NCBI GenBank assembly: GCA_029978705.1
Contig: JAPOIY010000001.1
Coordinates: 62,001-126,000 of the forward strand
DNA from: Actinomycetota bacterium
GTDB lineage: Bacteria > Actinomycetota > Actinomycetes > S36-B12 > GCA-2699445
Reading direction: 5' to 3'
DNA: 64,000 nt
Shown here: piece by piece, positions 31,519-51,565 of the stretch
How positions within the stretch are numbered: the first letter of the stretch is position 1
Layout of the letters: each line of letters starts with the position of its first letter
Made by a program: the position numbers and the translations under genes
The notes under the pieces: generated by a model
Seen by the model: only the letters and a program-made list of their open reading frames with translations
Told to the model about the DNA's origin: nothing
Database searches by the model: none

Positions 31519-32814
31519 TCACCCTGCGTCCCCGTGGCCCTGGTAGACGTCCGGCACGCCGTCCCCGTCGTCGTCCTGCTCCTCCTCACTCTGCAGTTGG
31601 GCGTAGTACCGGTTGCGGGTGAGCAGGGCGATGCCGGCCACGACGGCCGAGATGAGGGACGCGAGCAGGACGGACAGTTTGGCGCTGTTGAGCAGGAACG
31701 CGTCGGTCGGGAAGGCCAGTTCGGAGATCAGCAGGGAGACGGTGAAGCCGATTCCGGCGAGCAGGCCGACGGTCAGGACGTCGCGCCACCGGATGGACGA
31801 GCTGAGGCTCGCCCGGGTGAAGCGGGCCATCAGCCACGCCGTCCCGATGACCCCGATGGGTTTGCCCAGGACGAGGCCGAGGATCACGCCGATGGCGATC
31901 GGCGTCGTCGCCGTCGCCACGACGTCGGTGCCGCGCAGATCGACGCCCGCGGCGAAGAACGCGAACGCCGGGACGGCGAAGCCGGCGCTGATGGGCCGCA
32001 CCACGTGTTCGGCCCGCTCGCCGGGGGACTCCTCCTCGCCCGGGTCGGGAACCACCCGCGTCAGCAGGCCGACGGCGACTCCCGCGACGGTGGCGTGGAT
32101 ACCGCTGGCGTGCATGAACCCCCACGCCGTCACGGCGATGACGAGGTACAGGGGCCAGCCCTTCACGCGCAGCCACTGCAGCAGTCCGTAGAGACAGATG
32201 AGGCCGACGGAGATCGCGAAGGCCGTCGCGTTGAACCCGTGCGAGTAGAAGATGGCGATCACGAGGATCGCGCCGAGGTCGTCGACCACCGCCAAGGAGA
32301 GCAGGAATGCCCGCAGGGCGATGGGCAGGGACCGGCCGACGACGGCGAGCACCGCCAGCGCGAAGGCGATGTCCGTCGCCATCGGAATACCCCAGCCGAT
32401 GGGTTCGCCGGCGGGCTGGGTGGTGTTGACGATCGCGTAGATGATCGCGGGTACCGCCATGCCGCCGATGGCGGCGGCGATCGGGACGGCGGCCTTGCGG
32501 GGATTGGCCAACGTGCCGCGTTGGAACTCGTAGCGCAGTTCGATGCCCGCGACGAAGAAGAAGATCGCCAGCAGGCCGTCCGCCGCCCACTGCGACAAGG
32601 TCAGGTTCAGATGCCACGGCGCGTAGCCCACGACCGTGTCGGAGATCGTCTGGTAGACATCGCCCCAGGAACTGTTGGCCCAGATCAGCGCGATAGCCGC
32701 CGAGATGAGTAGCAGGATGCCGCCCACGGTCTCGTCCCGGAGGGTCTCCAGCAGCCACTTCCGTTCCGGTAGGGACACCCGGCCGAAGAGGCCGCCACCG
32801 TCGGATGCCGCCAT
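31519..32814 (-). CDS. nhaA: Na+/H+ antiporter NhaA
   Basis: A 431-residue membrane antiporter with about 12 helices, exchanging internal Na+ or Li+ for external H+ in pH and salt homeostasis. The paired aspartates of the transport site are seen in SLAVVDDLGAILVIAIFY. The start GLFGRVSLPERKWLLETLRDETVGG is typical. ATG 32814 has TACTGT at six-base spacing and no ribosome site. The C-terminal tail is acidic (EEEQDDDGDG). It is divergent from the thioesterase gene. Confidence 0.93.
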   Translation of the reverse strand: MAASDGGGLFGRVSLPERKWLLETLRDETVGGILLLISAAIALIWANSSWGDVYQTISDTVVGYAPWHLNLTLSQWAADGLLAIFFFVAGIELRYEFQRGTLANPRKAAVPIAAAIGGMAVPAIIYAIVNTTQPAGEPIGWGIPMATDIAFALAVLAVVGRSLPIALRAFLLSLAVVDDLGAILVIAIFYSHGFNATAFAISVGLICLYGLLQWLRVKGWPLYLVIAVTAWGFMHASGIHATVAGVAVGLLTRVVPDPGEEESPGERAEHVVRPISAGFAVPAFAFFAAGVDLRGTDVVATATTPIAIGVILGLVLGKPIGVIGTAWLMARFTRASLSSSIRWRDVLTVGLLAGIGFTVSLLISELAFPTDAFLLNSAKLSVLLASLISAVVAGIALLTRNRYYAQLQSEEEQDDDGDGVPDVYQGHGDAG

Positions 32815-32820
32815 GCCGCC

Positions 32821-32826
32821 ACAGTA
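32821..32826 (-). promoter_or_regulatory. -10 for a leaderless mRNA (nhaA)
   Basis: TACTGT on the minus strand ends six bases before the ATG (32814-32812). Confidence 0.5.
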
Positions 32827-32863
32827 GTGGCCGGGTCCGGGGGAGGACACCGCCTGCCGGTGG

Positions 32864-32869
32864 CACGAT
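32864..32869 (+). promoter_or_regulatory. -10-like element for the hotdog thioesterase gene
   Basis: CACGAT ends six bases before GTG 32876, matching the leaderless arrangement of the divergent nhaA gene. Confidence 0.38.
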
Positions 32870-32875
32870 GGGACC

Positions 32876-33325
32876 GTGAGCGCCGTCCCCACTCCCGCCG
32901 AGGCGACCGCCCTGATGCACCAGGCGATCCCCTTCCTGCAACGCATGGGTCTGGAGGTGGTCGCCATCGACACCGGATACGTGGAGTTGCGGGCCCCGTT
33001 CGCCGGCAACGGCAACCATGTGGGGACGATGTACGCCGGAGCGCTGTTCTCGACCGCCGAGGTCCCCGGGGGGCTGCTGGGCCTCCTGCTGTTCGACCCC
33101 ACACGGTTCTTCCCCGTCATCCGGTCGATGAGCGTGACCTATCTACGGCCCGCGACCACCGATGTCACCGTCGTGGCCCGGATCCCGACGGACGAGGCCG
33201 ACCGGGTCCGCGCGGGCGCCGAGCGCGACGGAAAAGCCGACTTCGTGCTCGATCTGGAGGTTCGGGACGCCGCCGGCGTGGTCGTCATGACCAGCGAGGG
33301 TCACTACCAGTTGCGTTCCCGCTGA
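32876..33325 (+). CDS. Hotdog-fold protein (DUF4442/PaaI-like thioesterase)
   Basis: A 149-residue single-domain hotdog protein. The central helix NHVGTMYAGALFSTAEVPGG is the characteristic hotdog helix, with the DUF4442/YiiD-C-like pattern, and is followed by the SMSVTYLRPATTDVTVVARI strands. Acyl-CoA thioesterase activity is typical of relatives, but the substrate is not known. It is convergent with acs, five bases apart. Confidence 0.75.
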   Translation: MSAVPTPAEATALMHQAIPFLQRMGLEVVAIDTGYVELRAPFAGNGNHVGTMYAGALFSTAEVPGGLLGLLLFDPTRFFPVIRSMSVTYLRPATTDVTVVARIPTDEADRVRAGAERDGKADFVLDLEVRDAAGVVVMTSEGHYQLRSR

Positions 33326-33330
33326 CCGCG

Positions 33331-35289
<1,959 letters not shown>

Positions 35290-35340
35290 GGGGCCTCCAG
35301 ATGATCCAGCTCGTACGCGACCCTATGCGACCCGGCACGC

Positions 35341-35346
35341 TAGTTT
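35341..35346 (+). promoter_or_regulatory. -10 for a leaderless mRNA (Fic-like gene)
   Basis: TAGTTT ends six bases before GTG 35353. Confidence 0.5.
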
Positions 35347-35352
35347 CATCTG

Positions 35353-36150
35353 GTGGCGGACCCGATCGCTGAGCTGGCGGCCCTACCCGACGTGGCGGCG
35401 GAACTGACCGCGGGGCGGACCGCCGTCGACCAGTTGCTGTGGAACCGGACTGCCCGTGGCCGCGGCCGCGGACTGGCTGCCGAGTCCGCCCTCCTGGGCG
35501 CCTGGGCCGACGCCGCCTTCGAGGGCGCCGAGGTGCCGCAGGACTCCCTGCGCGCGGGCGTGTTGGAGGATTCGCCGGTGGGCCGGACCGCGGTCCGGAC
35601 CCTGGCGATGTATGCCGAGATCCCGGGGGCCGCGGAGGTGCTGACGTCCGCCCCGATGCAGGCGCTGGCGCGGCTGCACGCCGTGGTCTCGGTCGACGCC
35701 CCGGGGGAGCCCGGCCGACCCCGCCGCGCGGACGAGGTGGTGGACCCGCTGCGCCTGCGGACGGCCGTTCCGGCCGGTGCCGCGGCGGACCGGCTGGCGT
35801 CCCTGGGTCCGCTGCTGACCGGTGGTACGGAAGCGCCGGCGCTGGCGCTGGCGGCCGTCGTTCACGCCGAGGTGGCCGTCGTCCAGCCGTTCGACTCGGG
35901 ATCGGGGCTGGTGGCCCGCGCCCTGACCCGGACGGTCCTGCGCGCCCTGGGGGTGGACCCGGACGGCTGGAGCATGCCCGAGGCGGGTTTCCGGATGCTG
36001 GGACGCCCCCAGTACGTCACCGCCCTGCGGGGCTACGCGTCGGGGGACGTCGCCGGCGTGACCGGGTGGCTCGTCACGCACGCTCGCGCGGTCGCCGCCG
36101 GCGCCCAGGCTGCGGCGGAACGAGCCGAGGAACTGCCGCCGGATGAGTGA
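35353..36150 (+). CDS. Fic-fold protein with a destroyed catalytic motif
   Basis: A 265-residue helical protein. Residues 178-189 read QPFDSGSGLVAR at the place where Fic AMP-transferases have HPFx(D/E)GNGRxxR: the catalytic His is Gln, the metal-binding acid is Ser, Asn is Ser and the first Arg is Leu, while the PF, two Gly and last Arg remain. Upstream, DAAFEGAEVP (53-62) resembles the SxxxEG inhibitory motif of Fic proteins. It is therefore probably a non-catalytic Fic homologue. It is often annotated only as oxidoreductase beside acs in actinobacteria. GTG 35353 is leaderless by spacing. Confidence 0.65.
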   Translation: MADPIAELAALPDVAAELTAGRTAVDQLLWNRTARGRGRGLAAESALLGAWADAAFEGAEVPQDSLRAGVLEDSPVGRTAVRTLAMYAEIPGAAEVLTSAPMQALARLHAVVSVDAPGEPGRPRRADEVVDPLRLRTAVPAGAAADRLASLGPLLTGGTEAPALALAAVVHAEVAVVQPFDSGSGLVARALTRTVLRALGVDPDGWSMPEAGFRMLGRPQYVTALRGYASGDVAGVTGWLVTHARAVAAGAQAAAERAEELPPDE

Positions 36151-36163
36151 GGGCGCCCCTCAC
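36147..36163. terminator. Small hairpin over two convergent stop codons
   Basis: GTGAGG-GCGCC-CCTCAC spans the stop of the Fic-like gene and that of the convergent protease gene. It could end transcription from both sides but has no T-run. Confidence 0.3.
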
Positions 36164-36945
36164 GGGGTGCACGGCATCGCCATGAGAGCTGCCAGGCCGG
36201 CGCGGTCGCCCGCTGCCAGGGTGAGCCGGTCCTCGCTGAGCGTCCCGTTCATGATCGAGTCGCCGGTGGTCACGTGGCCCAGGCCGAGTGCGTGGCCCGA
36301 CTCGTGCTGGTACAGCGCCTGACGCATGCCGTCGGCCGGAAGGCGGGCGGCGTCGTCGGCGTCGATCATGACGAATCCGCGGTCCCCCACCAGCATGCCG
36401 CCGGGCACGCTCGGGTCGCTGGTCACCTGCAGGCCCCCGTTGCCCGCGGTCCGGCCCTCGACCGCCGTCGCGCGGTAGGCAGGGTCACCTACGCCGTCGT
36501 GAACATACGTGACGCCGATCGTGCCGGGGGCGACGGCCGCCAGGTCGATCTGCCCGGCGTCGTCCGTGTGCAGTTGCTGTTGGCCCGCGTAGACGAACTG
36601 GTAGTGCCCGCCGGAGGCCTCGGTCCAGCGCTGCATGACGGTCGCCCAGCGCGCGGCTTCCTGCCCCGGGTCCAGGCCGGCCGCCCCCGCCAGGGTGAGG
36701 TCCAGCGTGTAGCGGATGGTCCCCCCGCACCAGCGGCCGGGATAGCGGCTGTCATCGGAGCGCAACAGGAACGAGTAGCCCTTGGTGCGGGCGTCCGCCC
36801 GCCGCTGCAGGGCATCGTCGGACATCTGCTGGGTGGCATCCGCCATGGGCGCTCTCGGCCACTGGGGGCCGACGGCCACCAAAGCGACGGCGGCCACTGC
36901 GGTGACCGCCGCGACTCCGCGCAGGGCATTGTCGATCGTGGCCAT
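36160..36945 (-). CDS. Membrane-anchored or secreted zinc metalloprotease (matrixin-like)
   Basis: A 261-residue protein with an N-terminal hydrophobic segment (about residues 8-25) and a C-terminal catalytic site QHESGHALGLGHV, the HExxHxxGxxH zinc motif of metzincins, followed by a Met-turn (DSIMNGTLS). The preceding region (RYTLDLTLAG, ARWATVMQRWTEASG) fits a matrixin/peptidase-M10-like fold. Substrate unknown. ATG 36945 is taken; an ATG at 36957 adds MSCG. It is unusual here, because this slot between the Fic-like gene and the HAD gene is often empty in related loci. Confidence 0.72.
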   Translation of the reverse strand: MATIDNALRGVAAVTAVAAVALVAVGPQWPRAPMADATQQMSDDALQRRADARTKGYSFLLRSDDSRYPGRWCGGTIRYTLDLTLAGAAGLDPGQEAARWATVMQRWTEASGGHYQFVYAGQQQLHTDDAGQIDLAAVAPGTIGVTYVHDGVGDPAYRATAVEGRTAGNGGLQVTSDPSVPGGMLVGDRGFVMIDADDAARLPADGMRQALYQHESGHALGLGHVTTGDSIMNGTLSEDRLTLAAGDRAGLAALMAMPCTP

Positions 36946-37049
36946 ACCGCATGACATCGGTCCCACCGTCGGGATCGCCGATTCCCGTGCGCCGCCGTCA
37001 CCCGTTCGGTGCAGGCAAGTGCGGCGAATCGGGTCGAGGGGGACCGCGG

Positions 37050-37862
37050 TCAGGCGCTGCCGCCGGTGGCGGAGCGGCGCCCGGCGTACCACGCCAGACC
37101 CAGGGCCACCGCACTCCCGATCGCCACGGCAGCCGCCCGGCGGGCGTCCTTGCTCTCCAGCGGCGAGCGCATGGCCACGGGCTTGGAGAAGTCGAGGATC
37201 TCCCAGTCGCGCTCCTGCGCGATCCGCCGCAGCTCGTGGTCCGGGTTCGTCGCCACGGGATGGCCCACGACGTCGAGCATGGGTAGGTCGGTGTGCGAGT
37301 CGGTGTAGGCGTATGACAGGTCCAAGGCGTAGTTCCGCTCCGCGGCCAGGTCGCGCATCGCGTCGGCCTTCCCCTCGCCGTACGCGTAGAAGAGGATCTC
37401 GCCGGTGTAGTGGCCGTCCGTCACCGCCAGCTGGGTCCCGATGGCGAGGTCTGCCCCCAGCCGGTCGCCGATGGGTTCCACGACCTCGGTGCCCGAGGAC
37501 GAGATGATGATCACGTCGCGGCCGGCCGCCTGATGCCACGCCATCAGGTCGAGGGCCTCCTCGTAGACGATCGGGTCGACGATGTCGTCGATCGTCTCGG
37601 CGACGATCTCCTGCACCTGCGCCACGTCCCATCCCCGGACCAGGTCGGAGAGGTACTCCCGCATCTGTTCCATCTGGTCGTGGTTGGCGCCTGACACCAG
37701 GTAGACGAACTGGGCGTAGGCGGCCTTGATCGCGTCGGGGCGCCGGATGAGACCGCCCTCGTAGAACTTGCGGGTGAAGGCCAACGTGCTCGACTTCGCC
37801 AGGATGGTCTTGTCCAGATCGAAGAAGGCCGCGGCCCGCGGTGTCCCTGCGCCGTCATTCAC
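37050..37862 (-). CDS. HAD-IB family phosphatase (SerB-like)
   Basis: A 270-residue HAD hydrolase. Motif I is FFDLDKTI (nucleophile and acid Asp), motif II the Ser in IIISSSGTEV, and motif III/IV lies in GEGKADAM and YAYTDSHTDLPML. A C-terminal hydrophobic stretch (AAAVAIGSAVALGLAWYAG) is probably a membrane anchor. Such proteins flank the tad locus in many actinobacteria. Phosphoserine-like or lipid-phosphate substrates are possible. The GTG start at 37862 has TAGGAT at six-base leaderless spacing. Confidence 0.87.
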   Translation of the reverse strand: MNDGAGTPRAAAFFDLDKTILAKSSTLAFTRKFYEGGLIRRPDAIKAAYAQFVYLVSGANHDQMEQMREYLSDLVRGWDVAQVQEIVAETIDDIVDPIVYEEALDLMAWHQAAGRDVIIISSSGTEVVEPIGDRLGADLAIGTQLAVTDGHYTGEILFYAYGEGKADAMRDLAAERNYALDLSYAYTDSHTDLPMLDVVGHPVATNPDHELRRIAQERDWEILDFSKPVAMRSPLESKDARRAAAVAIGSAVALGLAWYAGRRSATGGSA

Positions 37863-37868
37863 GATCGA

Positions 37869-37874
37869 ATCCTA
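37869..37874 (-). promoter_or_regulatory. -10 for a leaderless mRNA (HAD gene)
   Basis: TAGGAT on the minus strand ends six bases before the GTG (37862-37860). Confidence 0.5.
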
Positions 37875-37971
37875 GGCCGGGATCCCCAGTCCAGGGGGGC
37901 AACCGCCGTCCCCAGGTCGCCGCGGGGCCCGCGCAGCTGTCGGGGGACCGGGAGGCTGGCGTCACCCAACC

Positions 37972-38970
37972 GTGAGGATCCAGGTGCCCGATATCGCCGT
38001 GCAGGTCGCGGACCGCGAGCTGGCGCAGATCGTGCGGGAACTGGTGGCCCGCGCCCGGTTGAGTGCCTCCAGCACCGTGACCTCGGACGTCGACCTGCTC
38101 GTGACCGATCACACCCCGCCTGCCGGGTCTTCCCTTCCGACGGTCCTGGTGGCCCGGGGGGCCGACGCCGAGGTGTGGCGCGGGGCGGCGGGAACCGGGG
38201 TCGAGCAGGTCGTGGTCCTGCCCGACGGCGCTCCGCTGCTGCTGAAGCGGCTCCGGAGCCGCCGACCCCGGCCACCCGGGATCCTCATCCGGGTGATCGG
38301 GTGCCGCGGGGGGTGCGGGGCCACGACGGTGAGCGTGGGTCTGGCGGTCGCGCTCTCCGCGACGGTGCCGACCACCCTGATCGACGCCGACCCGGCCGGG
38401 GGTGGGCTGGATGTGGCGGTGGGAGTCGACGGTGAGCGGGGCCTGCGCTGGCCTGAGCTGAGTGGGCTGCGGGGGATGGTGCCGGTGGGGTCCCTGGTGT
38501 CGCGCCTACCGCGGGCGGCGGAGGTGCCGATTCTGTCCCACGGGCGTGACGTCGCCGAGATGGCCGATGCGTGGGCGGCCGTCACCGGGTCCCTGCTGTC
38601 CGGCGGCGGGGTGGTGGTGGCTGACGTCCCGCGGTACCAGGTGACGTCGCTGGCGTGTCCGGGCGACGGAATCGACATCCTCGTCGTCCCGCCGGACGTG
38701 GTGGCGATCGCGACGGCCCGCCGCCTCATCGCCGCGGGACACGTGGCCAGCCGTCCGGTTCTGGCGCTCCGGCGGACCCGCGGGACCGTCCCCCCGGCGG
38801 TGGTGGCCGAGGAACTGCCGGGTCGCGCCACCGTGCTGGTGCCCGACGCCGCCGGCGTCCGCGCAGCCGCCGACTTCGGGGACCTGGCCGAGGCCGTGAC
38901 GGCCCGGGGATTCCGCGGCGCCTGCCGTCGCCTGGCGACCGTGGCCGTGGGCGGGGGGTCCGATGACTGA
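37972..38970 (+). CDS. ssdA: SsdA/CpaE-like protein of the tad locus
   Basis: A 332-residue MinD/ParA-fold protein heading the tad operon. The deviant Walker A is degraded: RGGCGATTVS at 112-121, with Arg for the signature Lys and Ala for the P-loop Lys. TLIDADPAGGGLDVAVG keeps the following acidic motif. TadZ/CpaE and actinobacterial Ssd proteins share such atypical loops; they localise the pilus machine or act on septum placement. An N-terminal receiver-like domain covers about residues 1-95. GTG 37972 has GGGAGG about 20 bases upstream. It overlaps tadA by 8 bases. Confidence 0.82.
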   Translation: MRIQVPDIAVQVADRELAQIVRELVARARLSASSTVTSDVDLLVTDHTPPAGSSLPTVLVARGADAEVWRGAAGTGVEQVVVLPDGAPLLLKRLRSRRPRPPGILIRVIGCRGGCGATTVSVGLAVALSATVPTTLIDADPAGGGLDVAVGVDGERGLRWPELSGLRGMVPVGSLVSRLPRAAEVPILSHGRDVAEMADAWAAVTGSLLSGGGVVVADVPRYQVTSLACPGDGIDILVVPPDVVAIATARRLIAAGHVASRPVLALRRTRGTVPPAVVAEELPGRATVLVPDAAGVRAAADFGDLAEAVTARGFRGACRRLATVAVGGGSDD

Positions 38971-40105
38971 TCTGCTGGACCGCGTGCGCACGTGGTTGGT
39001 GGCGGCCGAGACCGACCCGAGTGGCGCGGCCATCCGGCATGCTCTCGACGATCTCGGCGTGGTGGCCGACGGGACCGAGGTGGCTCGGCTCACGCGGACG
39101 CTGCGCGCCGACCTGGTCGGCGCGGGCCGACTCCAGCCCCTGTTGGAGATTCCGGGGGTCACCGATGTCCTGGTCAACGGACCCGACCAGGTGTGGGTGG
39201 ACAGCGGTGCCGGGTTGCGCCGTTCCGACTGCGGGTTCGCCGGGGACCAGGAGGTCCGCCAGTTGGCGCAACGGCTCGCAGCCCAGGCGGGTCGCCGGCT
39301 GGACGACGCCTGTCCGTTCGTGGATGCCCGGCTACCCGGCGGGGTGCGCCTGCATGCGGCGCTGCCCCCCCTGTCGTGGCCCGGCACCCTCATCAGTCTG
39401 CGGATCCCGGCGCAACGGTCGCTGGACCTCGCGGCACTGATCGAGGCCGGGACCGTGAGCCGGGCGGGGGCAGCCTGGCTGGCGGCCCTCGTCGCCAGCC
39501 GTTGCGGCTACCTGGTCACGGGCGCCACCGGGTCGGGCAAGACGACGGTGCTGCGCAGCCTGCTGGAACTCGTGCCCGCCGATGAGCGCATCGTCGCCCT
39601 CGAGGAGTCCGCCGAACTGCAGCCCCGCCATCCCCATTTCGTGCGCCTGGAGGCGCGGGCCGCCAATGCCGAGGACCGGGGAGCGGTGCCGCTGGTGCAC
39701 CTCATGCGGCAGGCGATGCGGATGCGGCCTGACCGCATCGTCGTCGGGGAGGTCCGGGGGCCCGAGGTCACCGCCCTGCTCAACGCCATGAACACCGGGC
39801 ATGAGGGCAGTTGCGGCACGGTCCACGCGAACGCACCCCGGGCGGTGCCCGCCCGCCTGGAGGCGCTGAGCCTGGCGGCGGGGATGGACCGGGCGGCGGT
39901 GCACTCGCAGCTGGCCGCGGGGCTCGACGCGGTCCTGCATGTCGCCCGGGAACGCGGGGGTCGCCGCGTCATCACCGAACTGGGCGTGTGTGCGGGCGCC
40001 GACCCGGTGCACGTCGTGCCCCTGCTCACGTTCGGCACCGGCCGGCCGCGCCTGCACCTGCCGCACCATCCGGTCGCGCGCCGTCTGATGGCGGTCCTGC
40101 CGTGA
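38963..40105 (+). CDS. tadA: TadA/CpaF secretion ATPase
   Basis: A 380-residue hexameric ATPase of the type II/IV secretion superfamily that powers assembly of Tad (Flp) pili. Walker A is G187-ATGSGKTT, followed by the Asp-box region (VALEESAEL), the Walker B region (RPDRIVVGEVRGPE), and the His-box. ATG 38963 lies within the end of the ssdA gene (8-base overlap), and its stop overlaps tadB. Confidence 0.92.
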   Translation: MTDLLDRVRTWLVAAETDPSGAAIRHALDDLGVVADGTEVARLTRTLRADLVGAGRLQPLLEIPGVTDVLVNGPDQVWVDSGAGLRRSDCGFAGDQEVRQLAQRLAAQAGRRLDDACPFVDARLPGGVRLHAALPPLSWPGTLISLRIPAQRSLDLAALIEAGTVSRAGAAWLAALVASRCGYLVTGATGSGKTTVLRSLLELVPADERIVALEESAELQPRHPHFVRLEARAANAEDRGAVPLVHLMRQAMRMRPDRIVVGEVRGPEVTALLNAMNTGHEGSCGTVHANAPRAVPARLEALSLAAGMDRAAVHSQLAAGLDAVLHVARERGGRRVITELGVCAGADPVHVVPLLTFGTGRPRLHLPHHPVARRLMAVLP

Positions 40106-49234: not shown

Positions 49235-51565
49235 ATGAGTGCCGTCGATCTGACTGGCAGCAACCTGGTCACCGTGGGTGTGGTGGCGATCATCGCCCTG
49301 CTCGCGTTGGGTGTGGCCGCGGTGCTGGTCCGCCAAGTCCTCGCTGCCGATGAGGGCACGACCAAGATGAAGGACATCGCCGGAGCTGTGCAGGAGGGCG
49401 CCTCGGCGTACCTCAACCGCCAGTTCCGCACGTTGGCCATCTTCGCCGTCGTGGTCTTCTTCGTCCTGTGGCTGCTTCCGGCAGAGACCACCAGTGAGCG
49501 GATCGGCCGGTCGATCTTCTTCCTCGTCGGAGCCCTCTTCTCGGCCATCACCGGCTACATGGGGATGTGGCTCGCGGTGCGCGGCAACGTCCGCGTGGCG
49601 GCAGCTGCCCGCGAGGAGAACGAGCAGGGAGCCATGAAGATCGCCTTCCGCACCGGTGGTGTGGCGGGCATGTTCACCGTGGGCCTCGGGCTGTTCGGTG
49701 CCGCCCTCGTTGTGCTCGTCTACAAGGGCGAGGCGCCGAAGGTCCTCGAGGGCTTCGGCTTCGGGGCTGCGCTGCTCGCCATGTTCATGCGTGTCGGCGG
49801 CGGCATCTTCACCAAGGCGGCCGACGTCGGCGCCGACCTGGTCGGCAAGGTCGAGCAGGGCATCCCCGAGGACGACCCCCGCAACGCCGCGACCATCGCG
49901 GACAACGTGGGCGACAACGTCGGCGACTGCGCCGGCATGGCGGCTGACCTCTTCGAGTCCTACGCGGTGACCCTGGTGGCCGCGCTGATCCTCGGCAAGA
50001 CCGCCTTCGGCGACCTCGGCCTGGTCTTCCCGCTCGTGGTTCCGGCCATCGGCGTCATCACGGCGGTCATCGGCATCTTCGTGGTGTCGCCGCGCGCGTC
50101 GGACCGCTCCGGCATGCAAGCGATCAACCGCGGATTCTTCGTCTCCGCCGCCATCTCGGCCATCCTCGTCGTCATCGCGACCTTCGTGTTCCTGCCCGAC
50201 CGGCTGATCAACATGAAGGGCATCGAGGTGGGCAACTTCGACGTGATCGCCGTCGAGTCCTTCAATCCCCGGGTGTTCGCCATCTGGGCGGTCTTCGTCG
50301 GCATCATCCTCGCGGTCGTCATCCAGCAGCTGACCGCGTACTTCACCGAGACCAACCGGCGCCCCGTCGACGACGTCGCCAAGACCTCGCTGACCGGTCC
50401 CGCGACCGTGATCCTGTCCGGAATCTCCGTCGGTCTCGAGTCGGCCGTGTACTCCGCGCTGCTGATCGGCGCGGCCGTCTACATCGCCGCGCTCGCCGGC
50501 GGCGGCTCGGTGATCCTGTCGCTGTTCGCCGTCGCGCTGGCCGGCACCGGTCTGCTGACGACGGTGGGCGTCATCGTGTCGATGGACACCTTCGGCCCCG
50601 TCTCGGACAACGCTCAGGGCATCGCCGAGATGTCCGGGGACGTCGACGGTGAGGGTGCCAAGATCCTCACCAGCCTCGACGCCGTCGGCAACTCGACGAA
50701 GGCGATCACCAAGGGCATCGCCATCGCCACCGCGGTCCTGGCCGCGACGGCGCTGTTCGGCTCCTTCCGCGACGCCATCGCCCAGGCCACGGCTGCCGTG
50801 GTGAGCAACGGGGATGCGCTCGTGCAGCAGGTCGGCGCGACGGAGGCCGTGCAGTACCTCGGGGTCCTGAATGTCGCCACCCCGAGCAACCTCGTGGGTC
50901 TGCTCATCGGTGCGGCGGTCGTGTTCCTGTTCTCGGGGCTGGCGATCAACGCCGTGTCCCGTGCGGCCGGCGCGGTCATCTTCGAGGTGCGGCGCCAGTT
51001 CCGGGACGACCCGGGAATCATGGAAGGCACCAGCAAGCCCGAGTACGGCAAGGTGGTGGACATCGTCACCCGCGACTCCCTGCGGGAGCTGATCACCCCG
51101 GGCCTGCTCGCGGTCCTGGCCCCGATCGCCGTGGGCTTCGGCCTCGGGGTGGGAGCCCTCGGCTCCTACCTGGCGGGCACCATCGCCACCGGCACCCTGA
51201 TGGCGGTGTTCCTGGCCAACTCCGGTGGCGCCTGGGACAACGCCAAGAAGTTCGTCGAGGACGGCAACTACGGCGGCAAGGGCTCCGAGGCCCACGAGGC
51301 CACCGTCATCGGCGATACCGTCGGCGACCCCTTCAAGGACACCGCCGGCCCGGCCATCAACCCGCTGATCAAGGTGATGAACCTGGTCGCCCTGCTGATC
51401 GCACCGGCTGTCGTCACGATGTGGCTGAACAACCAGACGGCGCTGCGCTGGGGGATCGCCCTGGTCGCCCTGTTGGTGATCATCGGCGCCATCGTGGTCA
51501 GCAAGTCGAAGCCCATCGCCGTGGGCGACGCAGATGTCAAGGACGGGGAGAAGGCCAGCGCCTGA
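49235..51565 (+). CDS. hppA: K+-independent proton-pumping membrane pyrophosphatase
   Basis: A 776-residue membrane pyrophosphatase with about 16 helices that couples PPi hydrolysis to H+ export. The substrate site is in DVGADLVGKVE and DNVGDNVGDCAGMAADLFESY. The segment GNSTKAITKG has Lys where K+-dependent enzymes have Ala, indicating the K+-independent H+-pumping type. ATG 49235 follows CTGGAGAG. It is transcribed alone and ended by a strong hairpin. Confidence 0.95.
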   Translation: MSAVDLTGSNLVTVGVVAIIALLALGVAAVLVRQVLAADEGTTKMKDIAGAVQEGASAYLNRQFRTLAIFAVVVFFVLWLLPAETTSERIGRSIFFLVGALFSAITGYMGMWLAVRGNVRVAAAAREENEQGAMKIAFRTGGVAGMFTVGLGLFGAALVVLVYKGEAPKVLEGFGFGAALLAMFMRVGGGIFTKAADVGADLVGKVEQGIPEDDPRNAATIADNVGDNVGDCAGMAADLFESYAVTLVAALILGKTAFGDLGLVFPLVVPAIGVITAVIGIFVVSPRASDRSGMQAINRGFFVSAAISAILVVIATFVFLPDRLINMKGIEVGNFDVIAVESFNPRVFAIWAVFVGIILAVVIQQLTAYFTETNRRPVDDVAKTSLTGPATVILSGISVGLESAVYSALLIGAAVYIAALAGGGSVILSLFAVALAGTGLLTTVGVIVSMDTFGPVSDNAQGIAEMSGDVDGEGAKILTSLDAVGNSTKAITKGIAIATAVLAATALFGSFRDAIAQATAAVVSNGDALVQQVGATEAVQYLGVLNVATPSNLVGLLIGAAVVFLFSGLAINAVSRAAGAVIFEVRRQFRDDPGIMEGTSKPEYGKVVDIVTRDSLRELITPGLLAVLAPIAVGFGLGVGALGSYLAGTIATGTLMAVFLANSGGAWDNAKKFVEDGNYGGKGSEAHEATVIGDTVGDPFKDTAGPAINPLIKVMNLVALLIAPAVVTMWLNNQTALRWGIALVALLVIIGAIVVSKSKPIAVGDADVKDGEKASA

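Follow-up and report, generated by a model that had tools for sequence, protein, structure and literature searches.

The stretch analyzed here (to be referred to as the window) comprises 64,000 nucleotides of an Actinomycetota bacterium (assembly GCA_029978705.1, contig JAPOIY010000001.1, positions 62,001 to 126,000). It carries a gene, ficL, for a protein with the Fic fold in which most of the Fic motif has been erased, and which, judged from its sequence, is very probably non-catalytic as a nucleotide transferase. With a probability of roughly one half, FicL works as a Fic pseudoenzyme by binding and regulating a partner, for which the HAD-IB phosphatase encoded nearby is the likeliest choice. 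The gene is held under purifying selection.

Overall structure and kinship of FicL

The sequence of FicL gives a weak match to the Pfam Fic family (20.7 bits, E-value of 7.7e-4), below the 24-bit cut-off. A sequence search through the Protein Data Bank (PDB) finds the Fic protein of M. marinum (7cb8) at an E-value of 2.4e-10. With a profile of 47 orthologues (A1), the E-value for 7cb8 is 1.1e-16, and SoFic is found at 1.7e-6 over the whole core (profile 4–262 on chain 21–277).

The AlphaFold model of FicL, computed with 48 relatives, has a predicted local distance difference test score (pLDDT) of 95.8 and a predicted template modeling score (pTM) of 0.93. Comparison of this model with 7cb8 gives a Z score of 26.6 (root-mean-square deviation, rmsd, of 2.6 over 248 residues), and that with SoFic (3zcn) gives a Z score of 26.4 (rmsd of 2.7 over 253 residues). 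AvrB is also among the structural matches, with a Z score of 11. A Fic fold had been claimed in the original prediction, and the model bears this out instead of showing an unrelated fold.

FicL stops near the point where canonical Fic relatives in actinobacterial genomes run about 100 residues further. In SoFic-type proteins, the extra C-terminal part is a winged helix. FicL is the two-part Fic core of the SoFic type minus this C-terminal part, with kinship along its whole length.

The erased motif and the inhibitory segment

The motif of FicL, QPFDSGSGLVAR, aligns in register with the canonical HPFx(D/E)GNGRxxR. The catalytic His is replaced by Gln178, the metal-binding acid by Ser182, the Asn by Ser184, and the first Arg by Leu186, while the second Arg corresponds to Arg189. 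The frequencies of these changes were counted in 75 distinct sequences, from loci L001–L088 and the window, which were gathered without using the motif. Loci L089–L168 were left out of the counts because they had been found by a pattern requiring Arg at position 178.

Arg occupies position 178 in 58 of the 75 sequences, Ala in 7, Gln in 4, Gly in 4, Leu in 1, and Glu in 1, and none has the His. The first motif Arg (residue 186) is likewise absent from all of them, and an Asp or Glu is found at the acid position in two. Asn is present at position 184 in 12, so it is gone from most of the sequences, not all. The second motif Arg is retained in 73. Among 34 canonical Fic proteins of actinobacterial genomes that served as a control, the His is present in 33, the acid in 33, and the first Arg in all 34. 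The loss of His, acid, Asn, and Arg that had been read from the window thus holds in the family for the His, the acid, and the first Arg, but only in part for the Asn, and the second Arg is kept.

An SxxxEG-like inhibitory remnant had also been noted, and it corresponds to D53-A-A-F-E57-G58, with Asp53 located where Ser or Thr is expected. Gly58 is found in 73 of the 75 sequences, and residue 57 is Glu in 38 and Asp in 29.

Conservation and constraint

The observation is no chance event, a match being found in 53 of 60 relatives (in G049 only through partial, paralogue-like matches). Within the class of the window, 201 of 246 genomes have a match, and both counts include some genomes that have canonical Fic paralogues only. 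The gene is widespread but not universal, with several families lacking it.

The original prediction had named random changes at the lost positions as a sign of decay. When the 265 positions are ranked by entropy, such changes are indeed seen at the acid position (rank 231) and in part at positions 184 (119) and 186 (105). Position 178 has rank 65, and the former catalytic positions are ordinary or variable columns. The scaffold is constrained, however, with Phe180 at rank 3, Arg193 at rank 8, and Arg189 at rank 12. Phe180, Asp202, and Tyr221 are invariant in 152 of 152 sequences. The median ratio of nonsynonymous to synonymous substitution rates (dN/dS) is 0.146 for 1235 usable pairs, which are not mutually independent, and nearly all of the orthologues listed have an open frame with no inner stop. 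Read from the alignment, the pattern at positions 178–186 is that of a protein that appears to have lost catalysis, in a gene that is not decaying.

A sister clade with an intermediate motif

A profile search across the phylum finds relatives in other classes, and the set was extended by a second search with their alignment (A4, 396 genomes). The Fic proteins of this sister clade (L211–L251 and L268–L276) carry HPF(D/E)(A/S)ANGR, or a variant with Gln, Arg, or Met for the His. Among the 38 aligned rows, residue 178 is Gln in 17, His in 16, Arg in 4, and Met in 1. The acid position is Ala or Ser in all 38, and both motif Arg residues are present in all 38. An Asp or Glu is found one residue ahead of the usual place of the acid in 36. 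Moreover, Arg193, four residues past Arg189, is found in 34 of 35 ficL rows and in every sister row, the equivalent residue in canonical Fic proteins being mostly His or Thr.

In a tree calculated without the motif columns, the ficL rows form one clade with a support of 100 by the Shimodaira-Hasegawa-like approximate likelihood ratio test (SH-aLRT), and the ficL and sister rows together have a support of 99. The tree contains 72 of the 107 aligned rows, and the supports quoted are those of a quick tree. It was repeated on 66 rows, after dropping six that were long, odd, or near-identical, and in this repeat two long branches meet between the canonical rows and the remainder. Locus L276 is too short for the alignment, and the canonical loci L191 and L192 were excluded. 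The residues of the sister clade suggest an intermediate state, in which the acid would have been lost first, then the His, and then the first Arg, although the tree alone fixes neither the root nor the number of His losses.

A separate, milder loss of the motif is seen in a Fic paralogue of the canonical clade (L186, in genome G073), which has QPFDNGNGRVAR together with an altered inhibitory segment, SSRIAG.

The neighboring HAD-IB phosphatase

Directly upstream of the sister-clade Fic gene, and with the same orientation, 35 of 39 genomes have a HAD-IB gene. Three of the other four loci are cut by a contig end on that side, and one (G317) shows no HAD-IB gene, so that 35 of the 36 assessable genomes have this arrangement. 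A distance of 126–255 nt separates the HAD-IB gene from the matched stretch of its Fic neighbor. A crude clustering of the open frames in 11 sister loci finds Fic in 11 and HAD in 10. The only other cluster present in 10 loci is an arginine/glycine-rich frame on the opposite strand, a putative shadow frame, and further clusters are present in at most 7. Fic and HAD are the sole genuine families recognized at all or nearly all of these loci. No HAD gene was found near the canonical Fic genes of other classes in 16 loci. The catalytic residues of the HAD protein are invariant in 34 of 34 sequences.

Within the class of the window, the genes found near ficL at 40 diverse loci are tadA (30), HAD (26), acs (24), and ssd (22). 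At the 11 sister loci, with flanks of up to about 6 kb where the contig allows, none of acs, ssd, and tadA is found.

A binding or regulatory role would be favored over that of an enzyme, both by the erased site of a protein that many actinobacteria retain under selection and by the place of the gene directly behind a phosphatase gene in these distant relatives. As the direct partner, the HAD-IB phosphatase is our best, though tentative, candidate, though at somewhat less than even odds, and it is placed ahead of Acs since the sister clade lacks a nearby acs gene.

Proposed role of FicL

In the proposed mechanism, nucleotide transfer would no longer be carried out by FicL. The retained inhibitory-type helix and Arg189 would keep the Fic fold in a closed, inhibited state, and the protein would act through the binding of a partner. 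This partner would be the HAD-IB phosphatase encoded next to it, whose activity or placement would be tuned by FicL. A precedent for this mode is BepC, in which a Fic domain is used without catalysis to bind GEF-H1. The suggestion in the original prediction that a conserved but inactive Fic homologue could have become a binding or scaffolding protein appears well supported, by the fold, the residue losses, the purifying selection, and the single clade.

Fic proteins are known mainly as enzymes, and the cases without catalysis are few (BepC, AvrB). If the proposal is correct, many actinobacteria, among them streptomycetes and Mycobacterium-like genomes, would have a chromosomal family of Fic pseudoenzymes, and living intermediates would suggest the sequence of motif loss. 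In addition, the pairing with HAD-IB could give roles to two little-studied genes together.

Several observations weigh against this proposal. Arg at position 178 is steadier (58 of 75) than relaxed drift would give, and it is possible that this residue has a function. The HAD gene is not nearby at 14 of the 40 diverse class loci, and where it is near in the class, the two genes are convergent and form no operon. Of the class genomes checked, 12 of the 21 that carry ficL also carry the HAD subfamily, as do 14 of the 54 that lack ficL (Fisher p of 0.015, with kinship ignored). These 75 genomes were hand-picked and are enriched for genomes without ficL, and G115, where the HAD match (178 bits) is cut by a contig end, was scored as lacking HAD. 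A strict dependence of ficL on HAD is rejected, as 9 of the 21 ficL genomes lack the subfamily. The association with ssd is stronger, this gene being present in 18 of the 21 genomes with ficL and in 19 of the 54 without.

The HAD protein has a hydrophobic tail window above threshold at 18 of 26 class loci compared to 2 of 44 sister loci, with some genomes counted twice. A membrane anchor was considered from these windows and is not claimed.

Alternative explanations

The most probable of the alternatives, though an unlikely one, is that the pocket has acquired another chemistry or senses a ligand, with Arg178, Arg189, and Arg193 forming a new anion or nucleotide site. The prevalence of Arg178 and the near-invariance of Arg193 in the ficL and sister rows, at a position that is mostly His or Thr in canonical proteins, are consistent with this, as is AvrB, which binds ADP without the motif (PMC2686095). 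However, 17 of the 75 sequences have Ala, Gly, Gln, Leu, or Glu at residue 178, and few columns vary more than position 182.

More speculative is a two-gene system of HAD-IB and Fic throughout the phylum that is in the middle of losing catalysis. The Fic proteins of the other classes, with their shifted acid, would still perform an unusual transfer, which the phosphatase would undo or offset. After the stepwise loss of the acid, the His, and the first Arg, the Fic protein in the class of the window would serve solely to regulate either the phosphatase or a target common to both. We consider this improbable.

An accessory role in the Ssd/Tad secretion or pilus cluster is less probable again. 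The frequent presence of tadA and ssd near ficL in the class, and the enrichment of ssd among the ficL genomes, argue for it; the lack of both genes at the 11 sister loci, and the presence of ssd in more than a third (19 of 54) of the checked genomes without ficL, argue against it.

The link to acs that the original prediction found tempting has weakened, and a regulator of Acs is slightly less likely still than such an accessory. The two genes would share a divergent promoter region, the gap between them being 63 bp in the window. They are directly divergent at 13 of the 40 diverse class loci. However, acs is about 7 kb from ficL in the Mycobacterium-like loci L179 and L180, and it is found at none of the 11 sister loci.

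At L180, a gene upstream of ficL encodes a Dpp/Opp-like permease. Judging from gene order, we presume that Rv3662c is the M. tuberculosis orthologue of ficL. In the available parts of the open-licence literature, no study of the function of the ficL family was recognized. Rv3662c (256 residues, beside dppD) was called a toxin in the TASmania prediction from InterPro alone (PMC6504116), its transcript is up 5.8-fold on underexpression of whiB1 (PMC5741622), and it may be under HigA1 regulation (PMC3968373). A toxin of the Fic/Doc type is nonetheless very unlikely, as the catalytic His is missing and Rv3662c, when expressed in M. smegmatis, was not one of the six candidates, out of eleven, with an effect on growth (PMC6504116). 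Decay of the gene, to which the variable acid position and the several states of residue 178 might point, is scarcely credible and is rejected for the clade as a whole, given the open frames, the dN/dS, the invariant residues, the fold, and the single clade.

Other features of the window

The gene order around ficL is acs, ficL, a metalloprotease open reading frame (ORF), HAD-IB, ssd, and tadA (Table 1). An ORF similar to the matrixin-like metalloprotease is found at 2 of the 40 diverse class loci and at none of 80 others.

Table 1. Features of the ficL region in the window
Feature	Position	Strand	Basis
acs, acetate--CoA ligase; a neighbor within the class but absent near the sister-clade genes	33331..35289	-	
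Gap of 63 bp separating the start codons of acs and ficL, which diverge	35290..35352	.	
ficL, candidate Fic-fold pseudoenzyme, 265 aa, GTG start, without C-terminal winged helix	35353..36150	+	ORF, Pfam, PDB/profile searches, predicted structure
Inhibitory-type segment DAAFEG, residues 53-58, positional equivalent of class II Fic (S/T)xxxE(G/N)	35509..35526	+	Alignment
Erased Fic motif QPFDSGSGLVAR, residues 178-189; survivors only P179, F180, G183, G185, R189	35884..35919	+	
ORF of a matrixin-like metalloprotease, with uncertain start; separates ficL and HAD-IB as a lineage-specific insertion	36160..36990	-	Pfam M10 26.3 bits, HExxHxxGxxH
HAD-IB phosphatase, catalytic residues intact; only neighbor common to the sister clade	37050..37862	-	TIGR01490, 199.8 bits
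ssd / CpaE-like septum site-determining protein	37972..38970	+	
tadA-like ATPase	38963..40105	+	TIGR03819

A short gap (37863-37971) lies between HAD-IB and ssd. Work on small RNAs of mycobacteria mentions Rv3661, and a small RNA may be encoded there; an Rfam scan of the window at gathering scores gave no match. A tRNA-Thr (GGT) at 49617-49715 (+) is the sole tRNA found in the window. At 31519-33325, an nhaA ORF (-) overlaps a thioesterase-like ORF (+, DUF4442/YiiD_C) as listed, and the true start of nhaA is probably downstream of the first ATG.

Comparison with known systems

FicL has the same fold as SoFic and the class II Fic AMP transferases (3zcn, 3eqx) and M. marinum Fic (7cb8) over about 250 residues. 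It shares with these proteins the second motif Arg and the helical N-terminal part, in which the place of the (S/T)xxxEG-type inhibitory segment is kept. In comparison with them, it lacks the catalytic His, the acid, the first Arg, and the C-terminal winged helix, and Arg193 and Asp202 are fixed in FicL.

The Fic domain of Bartonella BepC binds GEF-H1 without catalysis, and a quadruple active-site mutant is still functional (PMC7842960). FicL may resemble BepC in acting through binding, to judge from its motif loss and constraint. BepC (HxFxKGNGRxxR) differs from FicL in keeping the His, the Asn, and both Arg residues; it also carries OB and BID domains, and its site of action is the host cell. 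Doc clade D2 (Qx[F/Y]x[D/E][G/V]NKR) has Gln for the His, as in the window, but it keeps the acid, the Asn, and NKR, and its members are usually single-domain Doc proteins (Khater and Mohanty 2015, PMC4454073). The motif of FicL is absent from the motif classes in the available text of that study. AvrB, like FicL, has the Fic fold without the motif (PMC2686095). However, it is an effector directed at plants, it contains an inserted upper lobe, and its structural match to FicL is far weaker than those of SoFic and M. marinum Fic (Z score of 11 compared to 26).
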